Origin: Silicimonas sp. | Lineage (GTDB): Bacteria; Pseudomonadota; Alphaproteobacteria; Rhodobacterales; Rhodobacteraceae | DNA length: 40,286 nt | NCBI GenBank assembly: GCA_022820365.1 | Contig: JAJEFO010000033.1 | Span: 1 to 40,286, forward strand | Reading direction: 5' to 3' | Shown: positions 2,717 through 18,316 of the stretch, one piece after another | Position numbering within the stretch: the stretch's first letter is position 1 | Layout of the letters: each line of letters starts with the position of its first letter | Made by a program: the position numbers and the translations under genes | Notes under the pieces: generated by a model | Told to the model about the DNA's origin: nothing | The model's database searches: none | The model's input: the letters and a program-made list of their open reading frames with translations, nothing else

Positions 2717-2760
2717 CTGCAAATTTCTTTGCAGATTGATAGTATAACGTACGCACTATC
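2717..2760 (+). promoter_or_regulatory. Candidate operator/promoter region of the defence operon
   Basis: In an AT-rich stretch about 65-105 bp before the helicase start lie a perfect inverted repeat CTGCAAA-TTTC-TTTGCAG (2717-2734) and a second repeat GATAGT-N11-ACTATC (2738-2760) enclosing a -10-like TATAAC (2743-2748). Because the first gene of the operon carries an XRE-type HTH, one of these palindromes could be its operator. No good -35 box was identified. Confidence 0.35.
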
Positions 2761-2823
2761 GCACTTGATATATTTCTCGCCCTCGTTTATTCGCAACCTT
2801 GGTTGTAGGTGCGAGAGCGGGCG

Positions 2824-5800
2824 ATGCCGCCAGAATACGACACTATTCCCCAAGATTATCCCGAGCGCGTCAAGAACTTGCGTGATCGGCTCGGCCTGAC
2901 ACAGACTCAAATGGCGGAGCGCATTGGCGTGTCGTTCGCAAGCGTTAACCGCTGGGAAAACGGCCAGTCCCGGCCGACGCGTCTGGCATGGAAGGGGATT
3001 CTCGATCTGGAAGACGATTTCCGTACATCGATTCGACGGGCCGAACCGGCCGCCGCCTTGAGAACGCCCACGCTTGACTTTGGTGCGAGACCAGAGATGG
3101 TGTCTGCAGTTGCCGAGGCGACCCGCCTTGCCTACGGCCACCTTTCCAACCCCTCCTTCGCCGCTGAAATATCCTCCATCGATCCGCTCCCGCACCAGCG
3201 TATCGCCGTATATGAGCATATGCTCGACCAGTCGCCTCTTCGGTTCCTTCTTGCCGACGATGCCGGCGCAGGCAAGACGATCATGACCGGCCTTTACCTC
3301 CGGGAGATGCTCTCGCGCCGCCTCGTCACGCGTGTCCTCGTGGTTCCCCCGGCCGGCCTTGTCGGCAACTGGGAACGCGAGATGCGCACGCTGTTCCGCC
3401 TCCCATTCCGCATTGCGCGTGGCGCCGATGCGCGTGCCGGAAACCCCTTCGCCGGACCGGAAAGCGACCGCCTCATTGTCAGTATCGATACGCTCGCTGG
3501 CGAGCGCATGTTCGAACGCATGAATGAGGCGGTAGCTTCCGGCGCCGCGCGTCCCTATGACCTAGTGGTGTTTGACGAAGCCCACAAACTGGTCGCCGAC
3601 CGCGAGCGGGACTTCTACGTCCGCAAGACTGACCGCTACCGCCTCGCCGAGGCGCTGGCGGGCCTGCCTACGGACGACGACCGATGGCGCCTCGGCTGGT
3701 CGGCATCGAACGTCCTGCTGCTGACCGCAACCCCTCATATGGGCAAGGACTTTCCCTACTACAGTCTCTGGCGGCTTCTTGCGCCGGACGCGCTCGCGAC
3801 TTTCGAGGCGTTTGAGGCTTTCCCAGAGACGCAACGCCGCCGCCATTTCATCCGCCGCACCAAGGAAGAGATGGTTCAGTTCAACGGTCAGCCCCTCTAC
3901 CCGCAGCGAAACTGCGATACCCTCGGGTACGTGCTCAACCCGGGAGAGCAAGAACTTTATGACGCCACGACACGCTACATCGCCGAAACCTACAACAAGG
4001 CTCGCATTCTGAACCGTTCCGCCGCGCGCCTCGCCATGAGCGTGTTCCAGCGCCGTCTCGCCAGTTCGACCTACGCGTTAATGCGGTCGTTCGAGCGGCG
4101 CGTTGATCGCCTGAACGAGGCCATCGCGCTCGTTCAGGCGGGCCGCAGCGACGAGTTGGAACGGCGGCAGAAGCGGATCGCGAGCACACCAGATTTTTTC
4201 GAGTCCCGAACCGCCGACGAGGATGCCGACGACGACGGCCAGCGGGAGCGACATGAAGCGTTCGAGGAGCTTGCGTTCGGCGGATTCGCAGCCGTCACCC
4301 TAGCGGAACTCCGAGAGGAACGGGCCGAAGTCGAGGCCCTTCTCTCCCACGCACGCCGTCTCGCCGAGACTGGCGAGGATTCCAAGTTCGAGAAGCTGCG
4401 GACGGTATTGACCGATCCGGTCTTTGCACGGGAAAAGATCATCGTCTTCACCGAGCACCGCGATACGGCGGAGTTTCTGGTGCGCCGCTTGGAAGGGCTT
4501 GGCTTTGCCGGCCGGGTCGCCCTGATACACGGCGGGCTCGACTATCGCGAGCGTGAGGCCCAGGTCGAGCAGTTTCGACGTCCCGCCGATCATGGTGGCG
4601 CCAACTATCTGGTCGCCACCGACGCTGCCGGCGAGGGCATCAACCTTCAATTCTGCTGGCTGATGGCGAACTACGACGTGCCCTGGAACCCGGCGCGTCT
4701 TGAGCAACGGATGGGTCGAATTCACCGCTACGGACAGACTCGCGACCCGGTGGTGATCGTCAACCTGATCGCCGGAGAGACGCGAGAGGGTCGGGTCCTC
4801 AAGGTGCTTCTTGAAAAGCTTGAGACGATCCGCAAGGAGCTCCATTCGGACAAGGTGTTCGATGTTATCGGGCGGCTATTCGAGAACGTCCCGTTGAAGG
4901 ACTATCTGGAGAAGGCTGCGACGGAGGCGGGCACCCGTGACGCCACTGAGGCGCTCGGTCGCCGACTTTCGTCTGATCGGGTGACCGCGATCGACGGGCG
5001 AGAACGCGCCTTGTACGGCGGCGGCGAAGTGCGCAGCCGTCTCCCCGAGATCGCCGCGGCAATGGAACGGGAGCAGTATCGTCGCCTGCTGCCCGGATAT
5101 GTTCGCCGCTTCGTCGAGACAGCGGCTCCCATGATCGACCTGCGGCTGGAGGGCGACATTGGTGGCGTCTTCGACCTTGTGCCCGAGCGCCCAAGCGCCG
5201 CCGACGGCGTGCGCGGCGCAATGGACGCCTACCCCGAAGCGATGCAGGGCCGACTCACAGTCCACCGCCCCAAATCCAACGGCAACGCCATCTGGATGCA
5301 TCCCGGTGAACCGGTGTTCGAGCGTTTCCGGGCAGCCGTCCTGGAACGCCACGGCGCCGCAGCGCGAAGCGGATCCATCTTCGTCGATCCCCACGCCGAA
5401 TCGCCCTATCTCGTTCATTTGGCCCAAGCGTCGGTCGTTCGCCACGATGCGCAGCGGTCAGAGACGATTGAAACCCGGCCGATAGGAATGCGGCAGGAAG
5501 CCGACGGCACCATCTCGCCCTGCCCGCTGGAGCATCTGCTCTTGCTGCGCGGCGCGGACGGGATCGCGCCCGGCGCCGTGCCTTTGGCTCCGTTGGCTCG
5601 TGGTTTGACGGAGCGCGCGGAGGAATGGCTAAGGGAAACCGCACTGCGCATGGCGGCGGAACAATGTGCACGCATCAAAGAGTCGCTGCCTGAGCGGCGA
5701 CGCTGGATCGTGCGCGGGTACGACCACAAGACCGCCGAGTTGATGGCGAGACGGCGGCGCGTGAACGGCGATGCGCGCAAGGGCGATGCGAGTGCCAAGA

Positions 5801-6390
5801 CGGAGCTTGCTATCGTCAAGGAAGAACAGAGCCGACTTGTCGTGGAGAGGCGGCGCGGTCTGGCATTGCTGGACGCGGAGCCGTCCCTGATCGAGCCTGG
5901 CGAGACGGCCATGATCGCCCACGCGCTGGTCGTCCCGACAGACAATCCAGAGCAGCGCCGAAGGCACGACGCAGAAGTCGAGGCGATCGCAATGAACTTC
6001 GCGTGCGTCCACGAGGAAGCGGCTGGCGCCGCGGTCCGGGACGTGTCGCGGCCCGCTCTCGCGCGCCGCGAGGGGTTGGGAGATTGGCCCGGATTCGATC
6101 TTCGCTCCCAGCGTCCCGCCTCTGCGCATGGGCCAGCCGAGGACCGCGCAATTGAGGTCAAGGGCCGTGCCGGGACCGCCGCCGTGGAAGTGAGCGAGAA
6201 CGAATGGGCCGCGGCCTGCAACCTGCGGGACCGCTACTGGCTCTATGTCGTCTTCGACTGCGCAACGCCCCGGCCCCGCCTGGTCAAGATACGCGATCCG
6301 TTCAGCCGCCTTCTGGCTAGGGCGAAGGGTAGCGTCGTCATCGCCGCATCCGAAATTCAGTTGGCGAGCATGGACGAGGAGGGCGCATGA
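2824..6390 (+). CDS. HTH-SNF2/DEAH helicase with C-terminal DUF3883-like domain
   Basis: A protein of 1188 residues, the first gene of the defence operon. Residues 12-60 form an XRE/Cro-type HTH (L-T-Q-T-Q-M-A-E-R-I-G-V-S). The helicase core follows: Walker A D-A-G-A-G-K-T (146-152), DEAH box (251-254), T-A-T-P-H (301-305), the second RecA lobe with D-A-A-G-E-G-I-N-L, and Q-R-M-G-R-I-H-R (628-635). This is the layout of the SNF2-like helicases of DISARM (DrmD) and Hma-type systems. The C-terminus (about 1050-1180) has A-I-E-V-K-G and W-L-Y-V-V, typical of DUF3883. A fused HTH at the N-terminus is unusual. ATG 2824 is chosen over GTG 2809; neither has a strong ribosome site. Confidence 0.85.
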   Translation: MPPEYDTIPQDYPERVKNLRDRLGLTQTQMAERIGVSFASVNRWENGQSRPTRLAWKGILDLEDDFRTSIRRAEPAAALRTPTLDFGARPEMVSAVAEATRLAYGHLSNPSFAAEISSIDPLPHQRIAVYEHMLDQSPLRFLLADDAGAGKTIMTGLYLREMLSRRLVTRVLVVPPAGLVGNWEREMRTLFRLPFRIARGADARAGNPFAGPESDRLIVSIDTLAGERMFERMNEAVASGAARPYDLVVFDEAHKLVADRERDFYVRKTDRYRLAEALAGLPTDDDRWRLGWSASNVLLLTATPHMGKDFPYYSLWRLLAPDALATFEAFEAFPETQRRRHFIRRTKEEMVQFNGQPLYPQRNCDTLGYVLNPGEQELYDATTRYIAETYNKARILNRSAARLAMSVFQRRLASSTYALMRSFERRVDRLNEAIALVQAGRSDELERRQKRIASTPDFFESRTADEDADDDGQRERHEAFEELAFGGFAAVTLAELREERAEVEALLSHARRLAETGEDSKFEKLRTVLTDPVFAREKIIVFTEHRDTAEFLVRRLEGLGFAGRVALIHGGLDYREREAQVEQFRRPADHGGANYLVATDAAGEGINLQFCWLMANYDVPWNPARLEQRMGRIHRYGQTRDPVVIVNLIAGETREGRVLKVLLEKLETIRKELHSDKVFDVIGRLFENVPLKDYLEKAATEAGTRDATEALGRRLSSDRVTAIDGRERALYGGGEVRSRLPEIAAAMEREQYRRLLPGYVRRFVETAAPMIDLRLEGDIGGVFDLVPERPSAADGVRGAMDAYPEAMQGRLTVHRPKSNGNAIWMHPGEPVFERFRAAVLERHGAAARSGSIFVDPHAESPYLVHLAQASVVRHDAQRSETIETRPIGMRQEADGTISPCPLEHLLLLRGADGIAPGAVPLAPLARGLTERAEEWLRETALRMAAEQCARIKESLPERRRWIVRGYDHKTAELMARRRRVNGDARKGDASAKTELAIVKEEQSRLVVERRRGLALLDAEPSLIEPGETAMIAHALVVPTDNPEQRRRHDAEVEAIAMNFACVHEEAAGAAVRDVSRPALARREGLGDWPGFDLRSQRPASAHGPAEDRAIEVKGRAGTAAVEVSENEWAAACNLRDRYWLYVVFDCATPRPRLVKIRDPFSRLLARAKGSVVIAASEIQLASMDEEGA

Positions 6391-6716
6391 AGATCTGTCA
6401 TGTCGACCAGGGCGGCAACACCGTGCGAGTTACTTTCTTGACATTTGTGCCGACCTCCAAGACGAAAAATGGGCGGTATGCGACAGTTCAGGGGCTGTTA
6501 AGGCACTGCCCGCGGGAGGAGGCGACGATGGAGTTGGATCAGTCCGACGATCGATTGTCGGAGGCGACCGTGCGCGACCACGGGTCGGCCTGCGCCTCTG
6601 CGGCGATGCACAGGGCCGCCCTGCCTCCGCTTCACGACACGGCTGTGAACGGAGCCCGCGATCACCGTGTCCGAGGACGGCGTGGCCGTCTGGTTGAAGG
6701 TGGACGAGCATCATGA
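6387..6716 (+). CDS. Small ORF linking helicase and MNT genes, unrecognised, possibly decayed
   Basis: An open frame of 109 codons overlaps the helicase stop (ATGA at 6387) and ends overlapping the MNT start. The first 40 residues (M-K-I-C-H-V-D-Q-G-G-N-T-V-R-V) look coding. The second half is rich in R, A and H and looks like out-of-frame GC-rich DNA. A strong GGAGGAGG site at 6515-6522 precedes an in-frame ATG at 6528. In another frame, I-T-V-S-E-D-G-V-A-V-W-L-K-V-D-E-H reads like a genuine C-terminus ending at about 6723. The stretch may be a frameshifted gene between intact neighbours. No family recognised. Confidence 0.35.
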   Translation: MKICHVDQGGNTVRVTFLTFVPTSKTKNGRYATVQGLLRHCPREEATMELDQSDDRLSEATVRDHGSACASAAMHRAALPPLHDTAVNGARDHRVRGRRGRLVEGGRAS

Positions 6717-7045
6717 CGGATGACGACTTGCTTTTGCAGCAAATGACGGCGGCCATCGTCGAATCGGCCGACCCCGAGCAAGTGATCCTGTTCGGCTCCC
6801 GAGCGCGCGGGGACGCCGGGATGGACTCGGACATCGATCTGTTGATCGTCGAGGCGGAACCGTTCGGGCCGGACCGGGATCGCGGAGTCGTAGAGACGCG
6901 CCTCTGGCGCGCGCTCGCGAAATTCCACGTCCCAAAGGACATTCTGGTCTACAGCCGCGACGAGGTCGATTACTGGCGCGACTCGCTCAACCATGTGCTC
7001 GCGCGTGCACTGCGGGAAGGCAGGGTACTCTATGAGCGACCTTAG
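6713..7045 (+). CDS. MNT-type nucleotidyltransferase (antitoxin of HEPN/MNT pair)
   Basis: A 110-residue minimal nucleotidyltransferase. The Pol-beta superfamily signature is intact: I-L-F-G-S-R-A-R-G-D at residues 25-34 (G28-S29) and the metal-binding pair S-D-I-D at 39-42 (D40, D42). In characterised MntA/HepT modules the enzyme AMPylates and neutralises the HEPN RNase toxin. Its stop codon overlaps the start of the next gene (HEPN), so the two are translationally coupled in the usual MNT-then-HEPN order. What is unusual is its place inside a helicase-methylase defence operon, where it may guard the system or act as an abortive effector. Confidence 0.85.
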   Translation: MTDDDLLLQQMTAAIVESADPEQVILFGSRARGDAGMDSDIDLLIVEAEPFGPDRDRGVVETRLWRALAKFHVPKDILVYSRDEVDYWRDSLNHVLARALREGRVLYERP

Positions 7046-7430
7046 GGAGGCCCGGACGCTCACGGACGCGGCGGAACGGGATCTCTCCGCCCTTCACGGC
7101 ATGGACGATGCGGCGGTGTTTGCGGACGAAATCTTCGGTTTCCACGTGCAACAGGCGGCCGAAAAGCTGCTCAAGGCATGGCTTGCTATGCTGGGCGAAA
7201 CCTACCCGCTGTCGCACGACCTGGCGGCGCTGTTGGACATGGTGAACACGCACGGCGCGGACGTCGCTCGGTTTGACACTCTCGTGGATTATAGCCGCTA
7301 TGCCGTTCGCCTGCGTTACGCGGGTGCCGACCCCGGTGCAAGACCGCTCAACCGCAGCGAGGCTCTTGGGCGGGTCGACGAATTGTTCGAAGAAGTCCAG
7401 CGGCGGCTGACAAGCGCGGAAAGTACGTGA
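7032..7430 (+). CDS. HEPN-domain protein (toxin partner of MNT)
   Basis: 132 residues, all-helical. ATG at 7032 overlaps the MNT end by 14 bp and is preferred over the upstream in-frame ATG at 6993, which would add unrelated residues. The segment F-H-V-Q-Q-A-A-E-K-L-L-K-A-W-L and the later Y-S-R-Y-A-V-R-L-R-Y match the PF05168-type HEPN fold. HEPN toxins are often RNases with an R-x4-6-H motif, but here the R-Y-A-V-R-L-R segment lacks a clear following histidine. The catalytic status is therefore uncertain, and the pair could act through binding or as a nucleotidyltransferase substrate rather than as an RNase. Confidence 0.8.
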   Translation: MSDLREARTLTDAAERDLSALHGMDDAAVFADEIFGFHVQQAAEKLLKAWLAMLGETYPLSHDLAALLDMVNTHGADVARFDTLVDYSRYAVRLRYAGADPGARPLNRSEALGRVDELFEEVQRRLTSAEST

Positions 7431-8401
7431 CCATGGTGGACGTCAATCTCAAGGTCCCGGCGCTCGAAAAGTTGTTGGACTACGCTGCCAGTGGCATTGG
7501 CGCGGTGGCGCGGTCGATGCTAGCGCCGTGGAAGGCCCGAAGGGAAGCCGAGGCACGGCTCATCGGAGTTATTGCCGAGGTCGAAAGCCTGAAGCTCATC
7601 GCCAAAACCCATGCCGACGCGCGCAGTTTTCTCGTCGTGCCGGGCGAGGCGGAGCGCGGAGTACTCGACCTCGGCCCCGATGGTGTCGCGCAGCGGATCG
7701 AGTTTCAGGAGGAGAGACGGCAGGCGAACATCGTGTCCGTTGTCCAGGAGGCCGCCACCGAGCTCGGCGACAAGGAGGTTCCAGATCACGAACCGGATCA
7801 CGACTGGATCGCGCGGTTTTTAGACGGTTTTCAGGATGTCTCTGCGGAGGATATGCGGAAGATTTGGGCGAAATTTCTTGCCGGCGACGTGGAAGCGCCG
7901 GGCCGCACCTCTCTTCGCACGCTCTCGGTTTTGAAGAATATGTCTCAAAGCGATGCGAGGACTTTATCGGAGATCATGCGATATCTCATAGACGGCTTCA
8001 TTCAATCTCAATATTGCAAGCAGTCGTCTGATGATCCAAGGGGCATGTTTCTTGTTGAGCTCGAAAAATTGGGAATTTTCTTTAATAACGGTACGAGGTA
8101 CCTCATGCAACTAGGTGAAACTGGAACGAGAACTCTGGAGTGTTGTAACCGAGCAGTTGTTGCTTTTGGAAGTCACTGTCATAAATTTCGAATTCATGGA
8201 ATAATAATTCGAAATAGAGTAGGACGACAACTTGTCGTGTTATATGGCATTGATTCAAACTTCGAATATCTGAGCCATTTTGTGAGACTTTTGTCTCTGA
8301 ATGGGTGTGTAATGAAGTTTTCTCCTGTCGTCGATAGGTTGTCCGGAGGAAGGATCGGCGCAAATCACGGAGGCCTCCGCCTCTTCGAGCCGGCGCCATG
8401 A
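7427..8401 (+). CDS. DUF2806-like protein
   Basis: A protein of up to 324 residues; a GTG at 7427 overlaps the HEPN stop, and an ATG at 7433 is an equally good start. The middle (about residues 125-175) reads D-W-I-A-R-F-L-D-G-F-Q-D-V-S then M-R-K-I-W-A-K-F-L-A-G-D-V then S-L-R-T-L-S-V-L-K, which is the pattern I know for DUF2806, a family of unknown function seen in prophages and defence loci. The N-terminal 60 residues may form a short amphipathic helix. From about 7950 to 8350 the gene turns strikingly AT-rich compared with its first half and the operon, suggesting the C-terminal region has been exchanged. Overlaps the methylase gene by 4 bp. Confidence 0.7.
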   Translation: MTMVDVNLKVPALEKLLDYAASGIGAVARSMLAPWKARREAEARLIGVIAEVESLKLIAKTHADARSFLVVPGEAERGVLDLGPDGVAQRIEFQEERRQANIVSVVQEAATELGDKEVPDHEPDHDWIARFLDGFQDVSAEDMRKIWAKFLAGDVEAPGRTSLRTLSVLKNMSQSDARTLSEIMRYLIDGFIQSQYCKQSSDDPRGMFLVELEKLGIFFNNGTRYLMQLGETGTRTLECCNRAVVAFGSHCHKFRIHGIIIRNRVGRQLVVLYGIDSNFEYLSHFVRLLSLNGCVMKFSPVVDRLSGGRIGANHGGLRLFEPAP

Positions 8402-11400
8402 CATCCGACGCCCCCCGTCTCATTGAGGTCGAATTTCCGCTGGAGCGGGTCTCGCTCGACGCCGTGCACGAGAAGAACGTACGGCATGGGCATATCTCGA
8501 CTTTGCATATCTGGCCCGCGCGACGTCCTTTGGCGGCTTGTCGGGCGGCGCTGGTTGCAACGCTGTTGCCGGATCCGGACGACGCGGCCGAGCGCAAGGA
8601 AATTTATCGCCGACTCGCAGGCCAGGTTGTTGAAACAGTGAAGACCGAACGGCGGAACGGGCGCACGGTTGAGCGTCGTCGGCGCGAAACCCGGGGCGGC
8701 ATCCTCCATTGGGGGCGCGAGCACGGTCCCGACCTCGACTGGTTCCGCGAGAAGATCCGAGAGGCCTATGGCGGTCGCGCGCCCAAGGTGCTGGATCCGT
8801 TCGCGGGCGGTGGTGCGATCCCGCTGGAGGCGATGCGGCTCGGCTGCGAAGCGACTGCTGTCGACATCAATCCCGTCGCGTGGTTCATCCTCAAGTGCAC
8901 ACTCGACTACCCGAACCGACTCGCAGGGGAGTCTTTGCCGCTTCCAGGCTTCGCCCGCTCTGACTGCGACTTCATGGAGGCCTTCCTCAAGTCCAAGGGG
9001 TTCAAGGGCAAGGCGCTCGCCCGGTGCCTTGCGGCGTTCGGCCATGGCGAAGATGGCCGCGAGGCGGAGCCTGCCCTGATCGACGACACCCCTTCGCATA
9101 CTGACGAGCTTCTCCAAGCCGACCTCGCCTGGCAGGTTCGCGCCTGGGGCGGGCGCGTCTTGGCCCGTGCCCGCGCCGCGTTGGCAGAGCGTTACCCGAC
9201 ATATGCGGAATTCCAGCCGCTCGCGCTGGGCGGCAAGTCGTTCGAGCCACGCCCCTTGGAGCTGTTGGCACCGGATGGGAAGGGACAGACAGATGCCCGA
9301 CCGTTGAACGACAAGCTTGACGCAGTGTATCTCGACGATCCCCGCAACCCGCGATGGGTGGCGAAGCCAACCGTAGCTTACTTGTGGGCTCGCACGGTGC
9401 GTTGCAAGGGCTGTCGAGCCACCTTGCCGCTGCTCAAGACCCGCTGGCTCTGCAAGAAGGAGAGCAAGCGCGTCCTGCTCACGATGATGGAAAAGGCGGA
9501 TGGGACCGGCGTCGAATTCGGCGTTGAAGCCGGAGTCTCGCGAGTAGGCGGCAACGCGGCGCAGCGACGTGAGCACGACAAACGGCTGGGCGAGGGCACA
9601 ATGAGCCGCAGCGGTGCGCGCTGCCCCTGTTGCCCAACTATCATGACCATGGAGGATATACGCCTCGAAGGCCGCGCCGGACGGCTCGGTGCAGCGATGA
9701 CCGCTGTGGTCGTGAACGGGCCGAATGGAAAGGAATACCGGTCGCCGGAGGACGAGGAATTGCACGCTGCCGATGTTCCGCCGCACGAGATCGAGGCGAC
9801 TTACGCGGATATACCCTTCGGTCTGCAACACGAAAGAGTGTTAGAAGATGCGAAACGGAATACGTGGTGCGCGCAGTACGGCCTCGACCAATGGTCAAAG
9901 CTGTTCACCGACCGGCAACTCCTTGCGCTCGGTACGTTCGCTGAAGAACTGCGCCGGATGTCAATGAGCATGGAAAGCGTCCCAGACGAATTGCGCGAGG
10001 CGGTAATTTCCTGCGTGACTTGCATGCTCAGCAAGCAGACGGACTACAGCAGCAACGTTTGTTCTTGGGACAATACTAGAGAGACACTGCGCAACACATT
10101 CGCCCGATTTGCACTTCCCATTGTGTGGGACTATTGCGAAGTGAATCCGTTGTCGAATGGATCGGGAAGTTTTTTTGGCATGACGAACTGGCTGGGCCGC
10201 TATCTGGATCATGCGTTGTCCGCAACCGAAGCTGCGCCAGCCTCGACTATAGTCAACCGAAGCGCCATTGGGGCCGGTCAGGAAGGCTTCGACCTGATCT
10301 GCACCGATCCGCCCTATTACGACGCAATTGGGTATTCGAACCTAATGGACTTCTTTCATGTTTGGCTGAGACGCTTGCTTCATGGCATCGTCCCCGACGC
10401 CGACCGTGTCTTCGCTGATCCGCTGGGTCCGAAATGGGACAACGACGCCGAGGACGGCGAGTTGATCGACGACGCCAGCAGGTTCGGCGGCGACAAGGCG
10501 CTATCCAAGAAGACATACGAAGACGGCATGGCCCGCGCATTCCAGGCATGCCACGAGGCGCTGAGTCGGGAAGGGCGGTTGGTCGTGGTGTTCGCGAACA
10601 AGTCTCCCGACGCATGGGAAACGCTAGCCGCCGCCTTGATCCGCGCCGGATTCGTCGTTGACGGTTCTTGGCCGATCCAGACCGAAATGCAGAATCGTCA
10701 GCGTTCCCTAGCCTCAGCCGCGCTGGCCTCTTCAGTCTGGCTCGTCTGCCGGAAGCGCGCGCCGGCGCGGCCTGGATGGGACGCGGCCGTGCTCGCAGAG
10801 ATGCGCCAGAACATCGCGCGCCGCCTGCGCGACTTCTGGGACGCCGGTATCCGCGGGCCAGACTTCGTGTGGGCGGCGACGGGGCCGGCGCTCGAAGCCT
10901 TCTCCAGGCATCCGGTGGTGAAGAAGGCTGACGAGCCCGACGCGCTGATGACGGTCTCCGAGTTCTTGCGCGAAGTGCGCCGGATGGTGGTGGACTTCGT
11001 CGTCGGACACGTGCTGAGCGGCGGCGGCGACGATGACACGGCAGGCGGGCTTGATGACGTGACCACCTACTATCTGTTGCACCGGGGCGATTTCGGCTTG
11101 GCGGAGGCGCCTGCGGGCGCCTGCATCCTCTATGCGCTCTCGTGCAATCTATCGGACCGAGAGCTCTCCGACCGCTTCGCAATTCTCTCACGCCCCGGCC
11201 GCACGCTGTTTGACGACCTCGAAGACGGCGAGGCTGCGAGCGAAGAAGAAAATGCCGACTCTGCATCCAGCGGCGGCAAGGTCAAGCTCCTGCCATGGAC
11301 CCGGCGCAAGGCCAAGTGGCTCGGCCACGAGGGGCCGGGAGGACGACCAGTACCGCTGATCGATCGCGCGCACCGGCTGATGCACCTCTGGCGCGCCGGC

Positions 11401-11607
11401 GACGAAGCCCGGGTGAACGGCTTTATCGACGACAACGGCCTGGCGCGTCATGCCTTGTTCGTCCGGCTGGTGCAGGCGCTGGTCGAGCTGGCGCCCGCGG
11501 GGTCGGAGGAACGCACGGTTCTCGAATCCCTCTCCAACCACATCGCCGCCCGTGCCAGCATCGCCTCTCCGCGTCAGACTGCATTCCGACTGGAGACCAA
11601 GCCGTGA
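8398..11607 (+). CDS. DUF1156-type adenine-specific DNA methyltransferase with zinc ribbon
   Basis: 1069 residues. The N-terminal DUF1156 block contains H-I-S-T-L-H-I-W-P-A-R-R-P-L-A (about 32-46). The SAM site is L-D-P-F-A-G-G-G (132-139) and the catalytic motif is D-P-P-Y at 637-640, so N6-adenine methylation is expected. Paired cysteines C336/C339 and C409/C412 form a likely zinc ribbon. The C-terminal 300 residues carry no motif I can name. COG1743 proteins of this type are associated with DUF499 ATPases and SNF2-like helicases in predicted restriction-like defence loci, where methylation would mark self DNA. Start ATG overlaps the DUF2806-like gene and its TGA overlaps the ATPase GTG. 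Confidence 0.88.
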   Translation: MTSDAPRLIEVEFPLERVSLDAVHEKNVRHGHISTLHIWPARRPLAACRAALVATLLPDPDDAAERKEIYRRLAGQVVETVKTERRNGRTVERRRRETRGGILHWGREHGPDLDWFREKIREAYGGRAPKVLDPFAGGGAIPLEAMRLGCEATAVDINPVAWFILKCTLDYPNRLAGESLPLPGFARSDCDFMEAFLKSKGFKGKALARCLAAFGHGEDGREAEPALIDDTPSHTDELLQADLAWQVRAWGGRVLARARAALAERYPTYAEFQPLALGGKSFEPRPLELLAPDGKGQTDARPLNDKLDAVYLDDPRNPRWVAKPTVAYLWARTVRCKGCRATLPLLKTRWLCKKESKRVLLTMMEKADGTGVEFGVEAGVSRVGGNAAQRREHDKRLGEGTMSRSGARCPCCPTIMTMEDIRLEGRAGRLGAAMTAVVVNGPNGKEYRSPEDEELHAADVPPHEIEATYADIPFGLQHERVLEDAKRNTWCAQYGLDQWSKLFTDRQLLALGTFAEELRRMSMSMESVPDELREAVISCVTCMLSKQTDYSSNVCSWDNTRETLRNTFARFALPIVWDYCEVNPLSNGSGSFFGMTNWLGRYLDHALSATEAAPASTIVNRSAIGAGQEGFDLICTDPPYYDAIGYSNLMDFFHVWLRRLLHGIVPDADRVFADPLGPKWDNDAEDGELIDDASRFGGDKALSKKTYEDGMARAFQACHEALSREGRLVVVFANKSPDAWETLAAALIRAGFVVDGSWPIQTEMQNRQRSLASAALASSVWLVCRKRAPARPGWDAAVLAEMRQNIARRLRDFWDAGIRGPDFVWAATGPALEAFSRHPVVKKADEPDALMTVSEFLREVRRMVVDFVVGHVLSGGGDDDTAGGLDDVTTYYLLHRGDFGLAEAPAGACILYALSCNLSDRELSDRFAILSRPGRTLFDDLEDGEAASEEENADSASSGGKVKLLPWTRRKAKWLGHEGPGGRPVPLIDRAHRLMHLWRAGDEARVNGFIDDNGLARHALFVRLVQALVELAPAGSEERTVLESLSNHIAARASIASPRQTAFRLETKP

Positions 11608-12830
11608 TTACCTCGCTCCGCCTCAAGGACTTCAAGAACTTTGCCGACGAGACGCTGCGCGTTGGCCCGTTCACCTTGATCGTTGGCGCCAACGCCAGCG
11701 GCAAGAGCAACATCCGCGATGCGTTCCGCTTCCTCCATGGCATCGGCCGGGGCTATACGCTCGCGGAGATCGTCGGTGGCAAGTATGGGGGCGACTGGAA
11801 GCCGATTCGCGGGTCGGTGGCCCGGATCGTGCGGCTTGGAGCCTCTGAATCACCTTGGAAACCCGGGCCGTTTTCCCTGGAAGCCCGGATGCAACTTGGC
11901 TCCCAAACTGCAGCCGCTCAGGGAAATGACGTGAGATACCGCATCGAGGCCTGTCCCGAGGCATTCAGCGGCGGCGGACTCTCGGTTGTCGCAGAGAGTC
12001 TGAGGATCGATTCGGAAGAGGTGATCCAAGGTCACTTATTTGGCGACCGGCAGATGAACCTAGATCGTGCTCAGCCAGCGTTGTTCCAGATTCTCCACTG
12101 GGGGACCGACAACGTAACCTTCAAGAAGGTGAGACCGGTTGTCGATGAACTTCAAAGAGCACGTTTTTTTGATTTCAGACCAGACCGCATGCGAGAACCG
12201 ACCTCCCCTGGCCAGACGGCCTTGGGTGATGGCGGCGAGCATCTTCCTTTAGTGCTGCAAGAAATTTGCAACGATCCCGAGCGCAAGTCAGTTCTCACCC
12301 GTTGGATTCGTGAACTGACGCCGATGGACGTGAAGGACTTCGAATTTCCCACCGACCCGTCAGGCAAGGTCCACCTCGTCATCCAGGAAAGAAACGGTGG
12401 ACGCATACCTGCCGACAGCGCTTCGGACGGCACCTTGCGGTTCCTCGCCATGCTGGCTGCCCTGCTAGGAAATAACCCGAGTGATCTCTATTTCTTCGAG
12501 GAAATCGAAAACGGTCTACACCCGTCGCGGCTTCATCTCCTGGTCGAAATCATAGAGCGGCAGACCGCCAATGGAGGGCCCCAAGTAATTGCCACGACTC
12601 ATTCGCCCGATCTACTATCCATTGTGAGTGACGAGACTTTCGAAAACACTTCGGTCACCTGTCGCCTGGAGCATGCGAATGACGCTGTCATTCGCCGGGT
12701 CGCCGATCTGCGCAACGTCCGGAAATTGCGGAAATCTCAGGGATTGGGCAGGCTTCTTGCAGGCGGCTGGATGGAAACCGCGCTTGCTTTTTCTGAAGAT
12801 AACGGGGACTGCGGGGAGCAATCCGAATGA
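11604..12830 (+). CDS. OLD/AAA_21-like ABC ATPase
   Basis: 408 residues starting at GTG 11604, coupled to the methylase stop. Walker A is G-A-N-A-S-G-K-S (28-35), after the typical S-L-R-L-K-D-F-K-N-F start of OLD-like/RecF-like ATPases. Walker B is Y-F-F-E-E-I-E (296-302), followed by L-H-P and the switch region T-H-S-P (332-335). It lacks a fused Toprim nuclease, but the next gene, overlapping by 4 bp, supplies a Toprim-like protein. The two-gene layout recalls split OLD systems such as PARIS (AriA/AriB), although the partner family differs. It would act as sensor/motor gating the small partner. Confidence 0.85.
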   Translation: MITSLRLKDFKNFADETLRVGPFTLIVGANASGKSNIRDAFRFLHGIGRGYTLAEIVGGKYGGDWKPIRGSVARIVRLGASESPWKPGPFSLEARMQLGSQTAAAQGNDVRYRIEACPEAFSGGGLSVVAESLRIDSEEVIQGHLFGDRQMNLDRAQPALFQILHWGTDNVTFKKVRPVVDELQRARFFDFRPDRMREPTSPGQTALGDGGEHLPLVLQEICNDPERKSVLTRWIRELTPMDVKDFEFPTDPSGKVHLVIQERNGGRIPADSASDGTLRFLAMLAALLGNNPSDLYFFEEIENGLHPSRLHLLVEIIERQTANGGPQVIATTHSPDLLSIVSDETFENTSVTCRLEHANDAVIRRVADLRNVRKLRKSQGLGRLLAGGWMETALAFSEDNGDCGEQSE

Positions 12831-13390
12831 GGGTTTTGGTCATTCCCGAGGACTTCCGCAACGATCAATACATTCTGAAACCGCTGTTCAAGCGGCTGTT
12901 CGCTACCATGGGCAAAGGAAACGCACGTGTCCGGGTCTGCCAGGACCCGTTGCTGGGCGGCGTCGATGAAGCCCTGAAAATGGAGCGCATTCAGGAGGTC
13001 GTGGACCAGCACGACGGCATGACCGACATCTTCATCCTTTGCGTCGACCGCGACTGCGTTTCAGGACGGCGCCAAAGACTGGACCAACTCGAAGGAGAGT
13101 TCGGAATTGATCGCACTTTCCTCGCGGAGAATGCTTGGGAAGAGATCGAATCCTGGGTTCTGGCCGGTCTGGATTTACCGAGTGGATGGCATTGGGCGGA
13201 CGTTCGCGCAGAGATCCATGTAAAGGAACTATACTTCGACGCATTGGCCCATGAGCGCGGCGTCGTCGACGGACCTGGCGGCGGCCGTCAGGCTTTGGGT
13301 GAAGAAGCCGCACGCAAGATTTCAGCGATTCGGCAGAAATGCCGCGAGGACTTCGACGCTCTCGCCCAGCGTCTCGAAGCTCTACCCTGA
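12827..13390 (+). CDS. Small Toprim-like protein (DUF4276-like), ATPase partner
   Basis: 187 residues, beginning in a 4-bp ATGA overlap with the ATPase gene. The arrangement V-L-V-I-P-E (E8) and, after about 65 residues, L-C-V-D-R-D-C (D74, D76) fits the E...DxD metal site of Toprim folds. A conserved-looking E-E-I-E-S-W segment follows at about 103-108, as in DUF4276/DUF4435-type nucleases. In PARIS-like systems such a protein is the released toxic nuclease. Function here is inferred from fold motif and position. The exact Pfam family is uncertain. Confidence 0.65.
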   Translation: MRVLVIPEDFRNDQYILKPLFKRLFATMGKGNARVRVCQDPLLGGVDEALKMERIQEVVDQHDGMTDIFILCVDRDCVSGRRQRLDQLEGEFGIDRTFLAENAWEEIESWVLAGLDLPSGWHWADVRAEIHVKELYFDALAHERGVVDGPGGGRQALGEEAARKISAIRQKCREDFDALAQRLEALP

Positions 13391-13410
13391 ACCTGCAGAG
13401 TGAGGCCGAG

Positions 13411-16400
13411 ATGGCTCAGAAACTTCTTTGGACACCTTGGCACGAAGTTGCGAAATTGCGAGAGGACGTGCGCACGGGCGAACTCTCGCTCGCCGACTTC
13501 GCTGCCGACCTGCACGACGTGGCCATGCAACGAGGCGTGCGGCCCATCTATGAGGACCCTGAACGGTTCTTCGCCCTTACTTTTCCCACCATTCCGTTAC
13601 GCGAACTGGCCCGCGACGTGGCGCTTCGCCTCGCCGGAAAAAACACCAAGGCCATCCGCCAGCTCGAACTCACTTATGGTGGGGGCAAGACCCATACTTT
13701 GGTCACGCTCTATCATCTCGTGCACAAGCCGGATGCGTTGCCGGTGCTGCCCGCAGTCGAACAGTTTCAGTCCCATATCGGCGCGCCCCTGCCGACGGCG
13801 CGGGTCGCGGCGCTCTGTTTCGACAAGCTCGATGTCGAGAAGGGTATGGAGGTACGCGGCTCCGATGGCGCACTGCGCTGGCTCAAGCATCCCTGGAGCG
13901 TGCTCGCTTTCCAGGTCGCGGGTGAGGAAGGCCTGCGTGCGCTTCATCCGGACAGTGCGAACGAGGAACGCGAGACACCGCCTGCGGAGCCGCTTCTGGC
14001 CGATCTGCTGTCACGACCGCAGGCGCAAGGCCTCGCGACCTTGGTGCTGATCGACGAAGTGCTGATGTACGCACGCGAGAAGGCCACGATGGCGGAGGGC
14101 TGGCGCGCTCGACTGATCGACTTTTTCCAGTATCTTTGCCAGGCAGCGGTCAGGGTCGATCGCTGCGCCCTCGTTGCATCGCTGCTCGCATCCGATCCTG
14201 GAAAGAGCGACGCTCTCGGCAAGGAACTCACCCAAGAGATCTTCGACATTTTCAATCGGCAGAGGGAAGCGGGCATCCAGCCGGTGCAGCGGCAGGACGT
14301 GGCCGAGGTCCTGCGCCGACGATTCTTCACCCCCCAGTCGATCGCCAATCCCGACGCATTCCGTCCCCACGTTACGGCGGCTGTGGCCAACATCGCGGGG
14401 GTCGACGAGACCGTGCGCAAGGACAGGGCAAGTGCGGAACAGCGGTTTCTCGAAGGCTACCCTTTCCATCCGGACCTGACCGACATCTTTTACTCCAAGT
14501 GGACCCAACTGGACGGGTTTCAGCGCACGCGCGGCATCTTGAGGACCTTCGCCATCGCGTTACGTGACGCCGAAACATGGGACACCGGCCCGCTGGTCGG
14601 TCCAAACGTGTTCCTGCCGGCCCCCGGTGAGGGAGATCTCGCCGAAGCGGCGCGAGAACTCGCCGGCACAGCCACCCGTGAAGTGACAGACGGTACCGGC
14701 AACGTCTGGAGCGCAGTACTCGAAGGCGAGCTAGCCAAGGCACGGACGATTCAGGACGAGCAGCCTGTATTGAAGTTCCGTGAAATGGAGCAGGCAGTAT
14801 GCGCCACGTTCCTAAGCTCGCAACCGATTGGCCAAAGGGCGCATACGCCGGAACTGCTGGCGCTCATCGGCGCGACGCGCCCGGATCGCATCGAGCTGGA
14901 GAAGGGCCTACGCCGGTGGACGGATCTTTCCTGGTTCCTCGACGAGGCGGAGTTCTCTGGTTCTTCTGTGGCCGACGGCGGCTTGGGTGCGCTTCCTAAG
15001 GCATGGCGTCTCGGCAACCGGCCCAACCTAAAGCAGATGCACGATGACGCATGCTCCAACCGTGTTACGGCGGAGCTTGTCGAACAAACGCTCCTCGCCG
15101 AAGTTCGGCGGACGAAGAGCCTCACCCAAGGCGCTACGGCGGCGGGCGCACGCGTGCACATGCTGCCGGAGCGGCCACGCGACATCGAGGACGACGGGGA
15201 GTTTCACTTCGCCATTTTGGGACCGGGAGCGGTTTCCGACTCGGGCAAGCCAAGCGCGGAGGCGCGGCGCTTCATCGACGAGACAACGCGAATAGACCGT
15301 CCGCGCACACGCCGCAACTCCATCGTGTTGGCGGCGCCCTCTCGCGACGGTCTGAATTCCGCCCGCGTGCGTATCCGCGAATACCTCGGCTGGGAGGAAG
15401 TGCGAACCCAGCTTGGGGACCAGACGCGCGATCCTGTTCGCGAAGGAATGCTCGCCTCCTGGACGGGGCAAGCGCGCAAGCGTGTTCCCGATTCGATACG
15501 CCAGGCTTGGGCGATCGTCGTCACGGTCAACGAGCGCAACGAAATCCAGGCGTTCAAGGCAACAGTCGGTAACGAGCCGCTATTCGCGACCGTCAAGAGC
15601 GACCGGCGGGCGCGCATCCAGGAGACCGCGATCAGCGCCGAGGCGATGCTGCCGGGTGGCCCCTACGATCTCTGGCGGACCGACGAGATATCGCGTCGCG
15701 TCAAGGACATGGCGGGCGCGTTCGCGGAAAACCCCAAGCTGCCAAAAATGCTCCGCCAAAAGGAGATCCTTGACACCATCGACGGGGGTGTCCGGCAGGG
15801 CATCTTTGTTGCTTCACTTTTGCGTCCCGACAAGTCTATCAAGACCTGGTGGCGGATGCCGATCGACGAAGCAGCGCGGGCCGAGCCCGCCCTGGAATTG
15901 CTCTTGCCGGACAAAGCGACTCTTTCGGATCTTGATCCGAATACGTTGGCTCCTGGCGTTCTGCCCGAACTGTGGGCCGGTGAGTCTTTGTCCGTGGCTG
16001 ACATAGTCGCATATTTCGCAGGCGAGCGCATCGTGACCATGCAGCGCAAAGGTTACGAAGAGCCAGTGCCCATCCCAGCTTGCCCGCGCGCTGCAATCGA
16101 GGCGTCTGTCTCCGACGCCGTTCGTCAGGGAGTCCTGTGGCTGGTGAACGGTCCCGCGAGCTTTCTTGGGGAGCCCGCACCGCCCGGCGTATTGACAGAC
16201 GCCGCCGAACTGCGCGCACCAATGCAACCTATATCAGTGGATCGATTGACTAAGGATGCCGTGCCGAAGGCCTGGGCGGACGGGCAAACGAACGCACTCG
16301 CCCTGTCGGCCGCACTCTCAGTGCAGGCGGGAGCACCGCTACCATGGTCGATTTTACGCCGGGCAATCGACGATGCGCTCAGCGCACGCTGGCTCGCACT

Positions 16401-16734
16401 CGCACACGACAGTGGCCCTTGGCCGTGCGAAGCCGCAGGCGCAGCTGTCGTGACACTGACAGAGCCCAAGGCGGTCCCATCGAGTTTTGCGGATCAGAAG
16501 GACGACGCAGCGCGGATTCCGAAAGGAGCTCGCACCGCCGCCGCCGACCTAGAACCCCACGAACTTCAGGATCTGATGGACGTGCTGCCGGATGTCATCA
16601 CGGCCGCCGCCGGCGTTCCCGTGCGGTTCCACTTCCGCGTCACGCTAGGTGACGGCGATGACGTGACTCCCGAGACAGCGAAGTCCGTCAATGAACTCCT
16701 GGAAAGCATCAACTCCAAGTTGCGCCTGACGTAA
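13411..16734 (+). CDS. DUF499-type AAA ATPase
   Basis: 1107 residues. ATG 13411 is chosen because the sequence from M-A-Q-K-L-L-W-T-P-W onward resembles the family start; 20 bp separate it from the previous stop. Walker A is Y-G-G-G-K-T-H-T (89-96) and Walker B L-V-L-I-D-E-V (211-217), both characteristic of DUF499 (COG1483). A second conserved region, G-F-Q-R-T-R-G-I-L-R near 370, also fits. DUF499 ATPases accompany DUF1156 methylases and helicases in DISARM-like and Pgl-like islands and are thought to power DNA translocation or remodelling. It is the last gene of the coupled operon. Confidence 0.85.
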   Translation: MAQKLLWTPWHEVAKLREDVRTGELSLADFAADLHDVAMQRGVRPIYEDPERFFALTFPTIPLRELARDVALRLAGKNTKAIRQLELTYGGGKTHTLVTLYHLVHKPDALPVLPAVEQFQSHIGAPLPTARVAALCFDKLDVEKGMEVRGSDGALRWLKHPWSVLAFQVAGEEGLRALHPDSANEERETPPAEPLLADLLSRPQAQGLATLVLIDEVLMYAREKATMAEGWRARLIDFFQYLCQAAVRVDRCALVASLLASDPGKSDALGKELTQEIFDIFNRQREAGIQPVQRQDVAEVLRRRFFTPQSIANPDAFRPHVTAAVANIAGVDETVRKDRASAEQRFLEGYPFHPDLTDIFYSKWTQLDGFQRTRGILRTFAIALRDAETWDTGPLVGPNVFLPAPGEGDLAEAARELAGTATREVTDGTGNVWSAVLEGELAKARTIQDEQPVLKFREMEQAVCATFLSSQPIGQRAHTPELLALIGATRPDRIELEKGLRRWTDLSWFLDEAEFSGSSVADGGLGALPKAWRLGNRPNLKQMHDDACSNRVTAELVEQTLLAEVRRTKSLTQGATAAGARVHMLPERPRDIEDDGEFHFAILGPGAVSDSGKPSAEARRFIDETTRIDRPRTRRNSIVLAAPSRDGLNSARVRIREYLGWEEVRTQLGDQTRDPVREGMLASWTGQARKRVPDSIRQAWAIVVTVNERNEIQAFKATVGNEPLFATVKSDRRARIQETAISAEAMLPGGPYDLWRTDEISRRVKDMAGAFAENPKLPKMLRQKEILDTIDGGVRQGIFVASLLRPDKSIKTWWRMPIDEAARAEPALELLLPDKATLSDLDPNTLAPGVLPELWAGESLSVADIVAYFAGERIVTMQRKGYEEPVPIPACPRAAIEASVSDAVRQGVLWLVNGPASFLGEPAPPGVLTDAAELRAPMQPISVDRLTKDAVPKAWADGQTNALALSAALSVQAGAPLPWSILRRAIDDALSARWLALAHDSGPWPCEAAGAAVVTLTEPKAVPSSFADQKDDAARIPKGARTAAADLEPHELQDLMDVLPDVITAAAGVPVRFHFRVTLGDGDDVTPETAKSVNELLESINSKLRLT

Positions 16735-16843
16735 TGGATACCGCGCTCGGCTAACATTCTTGCAAAAATTGATGAGGAGCACCCGAAGCATCCGTTCTGT
16801 ACCGAAGGCAACATTCACTTCAATCCTCAAGAGCGATTCTCAG

Positions 16844-17281
16844 ATGGAAAGACACAATTTGACCTTAGTGACGCTAAACCCCGAACAAGTCGTGCGGGCC
16901 AAAGAAGCTAATAGCAGACGAAAACGGATCACGCACGCATTGATTTGCGGACCATACGGACAACTGTTTGGCACGGAAGCGCACTGCTTCAAGTACTTCG
17001 AAGTCTGGGATCCGGCCTACAGATTCGAAGTTGCACCAGGACAGTTCAAATCGATGTTCCCAAACTTGTTCGACAAAGCGGTGAGAACCGATGATTTCGA
17101 AATCACCGTGTTCGAAAACACACGGAACTTGACCGACAAACTGATCATGGCATCCGAAGCAAAACCGCGAATTGCGAGAAATATGCCGAAGCAAAGACGC
17201 CGGGCGAAAGCCCAACGCCCCTCTTCTCCCAAAGTGCCGCGGAGAAAGGGGCTTCTCGCACGACTGTTCCGTGGAAAATGA
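16844..17281 (+). CDS. Unrecognised small basic protein
   Basis: 145 residues if the ATG at 16844 is used; an upstream in-frame ATG at 16760 adds 28 less plausible residues. The central part is mixed alpha/beta in character with aromatic residues (H-C-F-K-Y-F-E-V-W-D-P). The last 40 residues are highly basic (K-Q-R-R-R-A-K, R-R-K-G-L-L-A-R-L), suggesting nucleic-acid or membrane contact. It lies 110 bp after the DUF499 gene on the same strand, so it could be the last member of the defence operon or an independent cargo gene. I recognise no family. Confidence 0.55.
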   Translation: MERHNLTLVTLNPEQVVRAKEANSRRKRITHALICGPYGQLFGTEAHCFKYFEVWDPAYRFEVAPGQFKSMFPNLFDKAVRTDDFEITVFENTRNLTDKLIMASEAKPRIARNMPKQRRRAKAQRPSSPKVPRRKGLLARLFRGK

Positions 17282-18316
17282 GATGCGCCCGTGATTCAAG
17301 CCTTCACACGATTTTGACGGCAATTTCGAGCTTGATTGTGTAGAACCTCGGTCGGTCGAAGAACTTGTCGCATTGGCGGGCAGCGATGTGACCTGGCACC
17401 TGTTCCGGCTAGAAGCTGCAGCCGAGGGCCTTGGAGGTGATCCCAGTGAACTGCGCTCGGGACAAGACCATTGAGCACTTGCCTTCACCCACCGATTGCC
17501 TCGATGCCCGCGAACCAAACGCCCGCAGGGCTGCTTGACCACATGCACTTTTTCCCCGCGCTCAAGATGCTGGCACTTGACTCCCGATAAATCCTGGTGA
17601 GCAACACGGCGTCGCGTCAAAAATACAAACGTGAATTCAGAAGATTACAACGTGTCAGATCGAGACTGACAGTGATTGTCGGTCTCGGTGATTGCGAGCC
17701 CCCGCAACCACAAAAGTACTGAAAATCAGAAAGTTAGAGTGTGTTCAACTTTCTGACGGATTCGTCCGAGAACAAGTTCGAGATGGACTCCGCAGGGTCG
17801 TGAAGGGTGGGCTTGACGGTTTCGCTGCGGAATAGAGGTGCGCATACGCAACCGTTACGCCACACCCCCAAGATTGGTGTGCAAACCTGTCCCGCCTCGT
17901 GACGCATTCCCTTCCCAGCTTCCGCTTTGCAGTAAAGACCGGTGTTACGTGCAACTCAGCCCTGGTTGTCCAGAGTGCGACTGATGTTGACCATCGGCGA
18001 CGGTCGGTTGTCCGAATCGTAATGCTGGCCGCTGTGCCTTACCTGTCATACGGCATTGAGTGAATCTATCACTACACTAATTGACAATTCAACCGGCCGA
18101 ACAGTGGGGATCTTGACCATAAGCAATGGACATCTGAGTATCGCAGTGGCAATAAAGGTTTATGATAGAGAAGCAAGGCGGACGCTAGTGAGACGGCACA
18201 CAGAGAAACAGTGACCCAAGCGCCCCATCTTATGGAACCAAAAGGGGCGTTCACTGGCACTGTGAGTGAATTGCAAGTCACAAGCATATGGCGTTAGAGA
18301 CCAAGGGACGGCCAAT
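17282..18316. other. One kilobase without an intact gene; decayed remnants
   Basis: Short protein-like pieces appear without starts. From about 17294 to 17470 the forward strand reads D-F-D-G-N-F-E-L-D, then L-V-A-L-A-G-S-D-V-T-W-H-L-F, then stops. From about 17744 it reads V-F-N-F-L-T-D-S-S-E-N-K-F-E before a stop. A hairpin lies at 17660-17686. No tRNA, IS terminus or attachment site could be identified. The segment separates the coupled operon from the AT-rich membrane gene and looks like an old recombination junction. Confidence 0.4.
17660..17686. repeat. Inverted repeat / hairpin
   Basis: CGAGACTGAC and GTCGGTCTCG pair over 10 positions with one G-T mismatch around a 7-base loop. No T-run follows on either side, so it is not a clear terminator. 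It may belong to a lost element. Confidence 0.4.

Follow-up and report, generated by a model that had tools for sequence, protein, structure and literature searches.

The 40,286-nucleotide contig JAJEFO010000033.1 of Silicimonas sp. (Rhodobacteraceae; assembly GCA_022820365.1), called the window here over its full length, carries a run of co-directional genes built around an Hma core, namely a helicase (HmaA), a DNA methyltransferase (HmaB) and an ATPase (HmaC), with further genes embedded in the gap between hmaA and hmaB (A-B gap) and in the gap between hmaB and hmaC (B-C gap). A preliminary description of this DNA had claimed eight genes in one composite defence operon, and all eight were found, on the + strand and uninterrupted, spanning 2824-16734. 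A palindrome lies upstream of hmaA, and comparison of sequences across relatives suggests that HmaA, which has an N-terminal helix-turn-helix (HTH) domain, most likely regulates its own operon, embedded modules included. The features are listed below (aa, amino acids; ORF, open reading frame; PWM, position weight matrix).

2757..2772, + strand: operator-like palindrome TATCGCACTTGATATA, upstream of hmaA; PWM score 20.9
2824..6390, + strand: HmaA, XRE HTH, SNF2 helicase and DUF3883/NOV_C PD-(D/E)XK domain (predicted nuclease); alternative GTG start at 2809
6387..6716, + strand: 109-aa ORF, probable scar of an earlier cassette (DUF3800 5' end); family search negative
6713..7045, + strand: MNT nucleotidyltransferase, embedded in the A-B gap; PF01909 3.5e-10, PF18765 6.6e-10
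7032..7430, + strand: HEPN protein, embedded in the A-B gap; PF05168 5.7e-11; ORF opens at 6993
7427..8401, + strand: DUF2806 protein, embedded in the A-B gap; PF10987 6.8e-27, 95 bits
8398..11607, + strand: HmaB, DUF1156 N6-adenine methyltransferase; PADLOC HmaB 395 bits, DPPY motif
11604..12830, + strand: OLD/AriA-like ATPase, embedded in the B-C gap; AAA_21 1.9e-34
12827..13390, + strand: 187-aa Toprim/RloB-like protein, embedded in the B-C gap; motif and weak fold matches
13411..16734, + strand: HmaC, DUF499 ATPase; PADLOC HmaC 226 bits; ORF opens at 13339

An Hma core of a separate lineage

The genes had been described as joined mostly by 4-bp start/stop overlaps. Six such overlaps exist (6387/6390, 6713/6716, 7427/7430, 8398/8401, 11604/11607 and 12827/12830); the first two, however, are made with a ninth ORF, 6387-6716, that was absent from the earlier list. 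The MNT and HEPN genes overlap by 14 bases given the HEPN start at 7032, which was picked from the sequence, and 20 bases separate the Toprim-like gene from hmaC given the HmaC start at 13411, which was set by comparison with relatives. The family calls were borne out by Pfam and PADLOC for all but the 187-aa "Toprim-like" protein, whose support is a motif and weak fold matches. Every catalytic motif searched for in the core proteins, the ATPase and the MNT protein was present.

The core had been named as Hma, and PADLOC agreed (HmaA 532, HmaB 395 and HmaC 226 bits); a passage of PMC8565338 names this system. DISARM membership was rejected by cut-off, the DrmD model NF038317 giving 332.6 bits against a curated value of 610. 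HmaC of the window (DUF499 1.4e-14, Walker A and B present) was 21-24% identical to eight other HmaC proteins, and in an HmaC tree of 43 rows, built by a quick method and with long-branch warnings, the 19 rows of the window's clade made up one side of a branch of length 2.55 (Shimodaira-Hasegawa-like approximate likelihood ratio test, SH-aLRT, 100). By these comparisons the window operon belongs to a deep, separate lineage of Hma, a DUF499-centred, Type-1 BREX-related system (BREX, bacteriophage exclusion).

Relatives were gathered by scanning a genome collection with an HmaC alignment of the window and the loci L021 and L022, and the best 80 of 201 HmaC relatives spanned 17 named phyla, with 4 unplaced. 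Where HmaA and HmaB were found near HmaC and on its strand, they precede it, extra copies apart (L087, for example, has a second helicase behind its HmaC). Pfam recognised HTH_3, SNF2-rel_dom, Helicase_C and NOV_C in HmaA. Among the clade sequences covering each motif, Walker A was kept in 29/29, DEAH in 31/31 and the E and K of EVK in 45/45; D1097, E1116 and K1118 (numbering from the GTG at 2809) were invariant across 45 clade sequences. The C-terminal PD-(D/E)XK domain has its active-site residues and is a predicted nuclease. HmaB has a DUF1156 match (2e-17) and the DPPY motif, and over aa ~451-630 (window 9748-10287) its identity among eight relatives falls to 36-51%, which is consistent with a changing target-recognition domain.

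An XRE-type HTH was present in 26 of the 29 clade HmaA sequences that reach the N-terminal part, the window included, and was not found in the other three (L088, L098 and L112). The HTH profile matched the clade's two viral-contig members strongly, and among 20 other helicases, one of which is a fragment (L028), it gave two weak matches (L023 and L145). Two viral-collection contigs, L139 and L140, carry HTH-type Hma with the palindrome and may be provirus, plasmid or misfiled host DNA. L022 (G321) has a clade HmaC at 14060-17146, with HmaA and HmaB not found in its 19.5 kb, about 14 kb of it upstream; this HmaC appears to be an orphan or remnant.

A palindrome matched to the HmaA recognition helix

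The palindrome was first noticed in an inverted-repeat search upstream of hmaA, across several phyla. It was modelled as a symmetrised weight matrix with the consensus TATAGCATATGCTATA, and a score of 14 was taken as the threshold for a site. In leave-one-out scoring, 22 of 28 hmaA upstreams reached this threshold (the window and two viral contigs included), as did 1 of 1120 site-masked random stretches and none of 131 hmaB and hmaC upstreams, one of which scored between 8 and 10. In a held-out set of 18 hmaA upstreams that lay outside the training, drawn from extended loci of the same 80, a site was present in 14, and coding and downstream controls gave 0/1080. The palindrome was found in none of the three HTH-less clade members and none of 16 other Hma loci, all of which scored below 2, and in none of 11 further Hma copies from the same host genomes, two of them with weak HTH matches (best score 7.4). 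Across these 30 operons without a clear HTH, four of which have weak HTH matches, it did not occur. The window palindrome at 2757-2772 (leave-one-out score 20.5) is the sole match of at least 10 in the window, and a pattern written to include it has a single match in the 4.7-Mb genome when one mismatch is tolerated. The 33 operator-bearing loci that have a record title fall into 11 named phyla, with 3 unplaced.

The palindrome also follows the predicted recognition helix of HmaA. The helix GVS[FY][AP][ST][VI]NRWEN is found in all 22 carriers of the first set and in all 14 held-out carriers; over 46 upstreams, a site scoring at least 14 accompanies this helix in 36/40, and accompanies a changed helix in 0/6 (L078, L093, L101, L106, L185 and L188). 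A second helix, VT[PL].TxHRWE, occurs at L106, L188, L191 and L192, and three of these four loci have an exact TATCANNTGATA, in which the outer TA ends are missing, as a second operator class that was defined only after its sites had been seen; an exact TATCANNTGATA occurs in 1 of 1120 random stretches. The genomes of L045 and L092 each hold one copy per helix type, and every copy has its own palindrome type; a third extra HTH-type copy, L193, scored 14.0. These comparisons of sequence indicate that palindrome presence depends on the HmaA recognition helix. The L045 genome (G714) has five HmaA-like matches, two of which are HTH-type with different helices and palindromes.

Several points weigh against reading the palindrome as the operator of HmaA. 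Among HTH-bearing loci, 6/28 and 4/18 fall under the site threshold, and three loci with the usual helix have no site (L071, L110 and L184), with L182 just short at 13.3. The motif emerged from an inverted-repeat search, the 28 loci scored were also the training set of the matrix, and the helix rule was phrased once the carriers of the first set were known. The held-out set includes close kin of training loci, and the loci are mostly metagenome bins. The 12-mer TATCANNTGATA also lies inside four first-class sites (L076, L083, L091 and L096), and the two operator classes therefore differ in their outer bases only. Furthermore, the palindrome could serve an activator or another regulator.

Filled gaps and their cargo

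To describe the two gaps in the relatives, a gap of 250 bp or more was called filled. The counts cover the assessable loci of the best 80 relatives, without the window, that have the order A-B-C; L042 is included despite a helicase remnant, and the decayed 258-bp gap of L040 is scored as filled. The A-B gap was filled in 37/46 loci and the B-C gap in 42/69; of the 46 loci judged for both, 25 had both filled, 12 the A-B gap only, 4 the B-C gap only and 5 neither. Filled gaps also occur in other-lineage, plasmid and viral loci, which stand outside these counts. In other Hma lineages, where the orders C-B-A and B-C-A occur as well, the same rule gave 10/18 filled A-B gaps (A-B order) and 11/22 filled B-C gaps (B-C order). 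Included in these counts are L036, both of whose gaps lack a 100-aa sense ORF, and the two loci L155 and L156 of a single genome.

The cargo amounts to 172 ORFs of at least 60 aa (window included) in 102 clusters. When ORFs of at least 100 aa are called on either strand by length alone, filled gaps hold 126 in sense and 15 in antisense orientation vs 202 and 169 downstream of HmaC, and exact 4-base overlaps were seen at 66 of 253 cargo junctions, with starts taken as longest-ORF starts. A Pfam family was assigned at E 0.001 to 23 of 30 cargo representatives, and the families include Schlafen/AlbA_2, AbiEii, Fic, GmrSD, DUF4143-ATPases, TIR, Piwi and DUF3644. Both genes of known systems lie inside Hma operons: a Pycsar cyclase (369 bits) with PycTM (113) at L061:2670-4911, a TIR-type Argonaute partner (211) with a short Argonaute (561) at L048:2433-5290, and a class II short Argonaute (644) with a SIR2 partner (401) at L090:6857-9983. 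Not every cargo gene resembles a defence gene; exceptions are a UvrD-like helicase, a ParA-like ATPase, two aspartyl-protease-like proteins and one DDE_Tnp_1-associated protein. In a tally of 88 cargo proteins, NTP_transf_2 accounted for 2/88 and HEPN for 1/88 among the 25 commonest families listed. Two of 32 multi-locus cargo clusters were present in both gaps (permutation mean 20.1, minimum 8 in 10000). Cargo identity, however, was over 10 points above HmaC identity in just 2 of 217 sharing pairs, so that vertical inheritance within a gap can account for this pattern, and slot specificity was dropped as independent evidence.

In the B-C gap of the window, the ATPase matched PDC-M07A (191 bits), HEC-01A (141) and AriA (122) in PADLOC. 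Its aa 61-180 (window 11784-12143) are 22-37% identical to eight relatives, vs 80-91% before and mostly 46-74% after, and form a candidate sensor region. The 187-aa protein that follows had no match in Pfam, PADLOC or NCBIfam, and its profile run against solved structures gave one irrelevant match (E 0.87). Among eight homologues E8 and D74-x-D76 are invariant. Its predicted model (predicted local distance difference test, pLDDT, 81.9 with 8 sequences and 42.2 from the single sequence) showed weak fold matches to the OLD C-terminal Toprim and to an RloB-like protein. The Toprim identity is graded as likely, because the fold matches miss E 0.001 in both of the libraries searched. RloA-RloB likewise pairs an OLD-type ATPase with a Toprim-like protein. 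Identity of the Toprim-like protein tracks that of HmaC (Spearman 0.89, 21 pairs of 7 loci), and that of the ATPase cluster does so at 0.66 (79 pairs). Because the Toprim-like protein co-diverges with HmaC, the ATPase-Toprim pair, alone among the inner genes, is read as an old core partner in the window's subclade, with several losses or decayed remains in near relatives: the ATPase is internally deleted in L041, L040 has a remnant gap, and L038 and L039 have a clean B-C junction. The pair was also seen without Hma core genes in view on a Brasilonema plasmid, on a viral contig and in G331.

The contents of the A-B gap turn over fast. The nearest relative, L037 (HmaC 87%), has HEC-07 (658 bits) in this gap; its DNA is about 80% identical to the window through HmaA, the alignment is lost 29 bases past the HmaA stop, and it resumes 18 bases inside HmaB. 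Among pairs with HmaC identity of at least 80%, an A-B cargo family was shared in 2/13 (1 empty in both) and a B-C cargo family in 11/31 (5 empty in both), the pairs overlapping in loci and so not being independent. ORF 6387-6716 has no family match in Pfam, PADLOC or NCBIfam. In a targeted comparison, its first ~45 bases matched the start of the L037 DUF3800 gene in the same gap at 34/45 (E 4e-6), and its protein scored 54 against that DUF3800 protein vs a maximum of 46 in 100 shuffles; against the DUF3800 protein of L067 the score was insignificant (37 vs a shuffle maximum of 47). This ORF is probably the scar of an earlier cassette. In L043, an MNT-start-like stretch (36/50, E 1e-5) precedes DUF2806, with a weak likeness to the DUF3800 start (E 0.07).

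The preliminary description had asked whether the inner genes reappear, on the stretch from the helicase to the DUF499 gene, in unrelated genomes. In other genomes some of them do: DUF2806 at the corresponding position in L043 and, split over two frames, in L040, MNT in L042, and the ATPase in many loci; the window HEPN had no match in any of the 80 relative loci. Recurrence of DUF2806 and the window-type MNT in the A-B gap is confined to near relatives. In L113 a less closely related MNT occupies the B-C gap, and two plasmids that were inspected carry DUF2806 away from Hma. The MNT protein has the GSx10DxD motif and matches PDC models only (best PDC-S09, 41 bits); the MntA model of the HepT-MntA type VII toxin-antitoxin system, NF047752, gave 32.4 bits, below its cut-off of 60. 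The HEPN, DUF2806 and Toprim-like proteins had no match among PADLOC models. The HepT active site is RX4HXY, and RDLSALH at aa 29 of the HEPN ORF is the sole stretch resembling it, perhaps by chance.

Directly after HmaC lies a 173-aa ORF with no Pfam match (16760-17281, + strand), followed by a 350-aa protein with an Mrr_cat restriction domain (18266-19318, + strand; E 8.3e-5) in AT-richer DNA of 44% G+C. An Avs2 homologue (618 bits) lies on the opposite strand downstream of the operon (19443-23642, - strand).

Proposed regulation of the operon and its place among known systems

The main text of PMC12839542 reclassifies Hma as Type-1 BR (BREX-related), and, like the published type, the window operon combines a helicase with a C-terminal PD-(D/E)XK-type domain, a DUF1156 N6-methyltransferase and a DUF499 ATPase. 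It differs in its HmaC (21-24% identical), in the palindrome upstream and in the helicase N-terminus, which is an XRE HTH where that text describes a TUDOR domain. As backup effectors, that text also proposes HEPN, MNT-HEPN and OLD-ATPase plus TOPRIM modules placed beside BREX and BR loci or inside them. Hma-embedded candidates (HEC; Payne et al. 2024 preprint) are known from citing passages in PMC12988326, PMC12111858 and PMC12255303; the window's inner genes likewise sit between Hma core genes, and the ATPase matches HEC-01A, but no HEC model is the best for any inner gene, PDC-M07A being the best for the ATPase. PARIS (AriA-AriB) and OLD systems offer a resemblance in an OLD-type ATPase followed by a Toprim-like protein; in the window, AriA is not the best ATPase model, and the partner has weak Toprim fold matches and no sequence match. 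The gene set had been thought perhaps undescribed. Since embedding in Hma was already known and backup effectors had been proposed, the composite gene set is no new kind of system; what is strongly supported as new, by sequence comparison, is an HTH-helicase Hma lineage with a matched palindrome. No account of an Hma operator was met in literature searches, which were not aimed at Hma operators; the main text of PMC12839542 does not mention slot, intergenic, DUF2806, Argonaute, pAgo, Pycsar, TIR, XRE, autoregul, promoter or operator, and the citing passages on HEC make no mention of operator control of the cargo.

A parallel for such control is a restriction-modification (RM) operon with an embedded DarTG toxin-antitoxin and one promoter, which PMC12255303 describes as repressed by RptR through palindromes. 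The window shares with this type I RM island a restriction operon with an embedded module under a (predicted) palindrome-linked promoter; however, RptR is described there as a separate small protein, whereas the predicted regulator of the window is part of the restriction helicase. Modelled on antitoxins and RptR, the HTH of HmaA would probably bind the palindrome in its own promoter and repress the operon. Cargo in both gaps would be transcribed with the core, as one transcript, and would thereby come under HmaA control. During infection, HmaA would come off the operator, whether engaged on unmethylated invader DNA by HmaB and HmaC, titrated or inhibited, and its departure would derepress core and cargo together, with a presumed anti-phage effect. 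The ATPase may then sense infection or inhibition of the core and free the Toprim-like putative nuclease, as the main text of PMC12839542 proposes for PARIS-like modules at such loci. Taken as a whole, an Hma operon of a separate lineage in which HmaA represses its own promoter and co-controls the cargo is a fairly probable account. The wider statement, that across the operator-bearing lineage of 11 phyla HmaA is the repressor of its own operon and gates core and cargo, with engagement on phage DNA as the induction signal, we would give about an even chance.

The preliminary description had favoured a fixed, integrated system of eight genes, layered so that the inner genes would all serve the core as its backup and fire when it is blocked. 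The 4-base overlaps, the single direction and the co-divergence of the Toprim-like protein with HmaC in 7 loci speak for it; however, near relatives (HmaC 73-87%) differ in A-B contents or have an emptied or decayed B-C gap, the ATPase-Toprim pair is seen with no Hma core genes in view, and two plasmids have DUF2806 away from Hma. MNT, HEPN and DUF2806 as fixed parts are refuted by these sequence comparisons, and the fixed system as a whole is very improbable. What the sequences do show is the gene content and its single direction, two cargo gaps, cargo turnover that leaves scars, a Toprim-like protein that co-diverges with the core, and an HTH-palindrome association that follows the recognition helix. 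Ordinary build-up of a defence island, in which modules inserted among the Hma genes without any link in regulation or function, would explain the great diversity of the cargo, the Pycsar and short Argonaute (TIR or SIR2) gene pairs in the gaps, the passengers that do not look like defence, and the Avs2 and Mrr-type genes downstream of the window operon. Against such loose accumulation stand the strand bias of 126:15 in gaps vs 202:169 downstream, the exact 4-base overlaps at 66/253 cargo junctions, and a palindrome that lies upstream of hmaA and not of hmaB or hmaC, and it seems unlikely.

It is also conceivable that HmaA uses its HTH to bind target DNA or to assemble the complex, and that another regulator reads the palindrome. 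Some loci with the usual HTH have no palindrome, which suits this explanation; it fits poorly, however, with the lack of the palindrome in all 30 operons without a clear HTH and with its dependence on the recognition helix (36/40 vs 0/6), and we regard it as doubtful. Autoregulation by HmaA accords with this HTH-palindrome association.

If HmaA does repress its own operon, a helicase that attacks invader DNA would also gate the cargo, which would explain how a module benefits from sitting downstream of hmaA. The literature met gives no account of how embedded modules stay silent or why they are placed there, and a fused HTH with a matching palindrome offers a concrete, testable answer on cargo silencing. 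Together, HTH and palindrome may help to recognise a widespread Hma lineage to which present models give low scores. Because the gaps hold known two-gene systems alongside many unnamed genes, they would be a good hunting ground for new defence genes.

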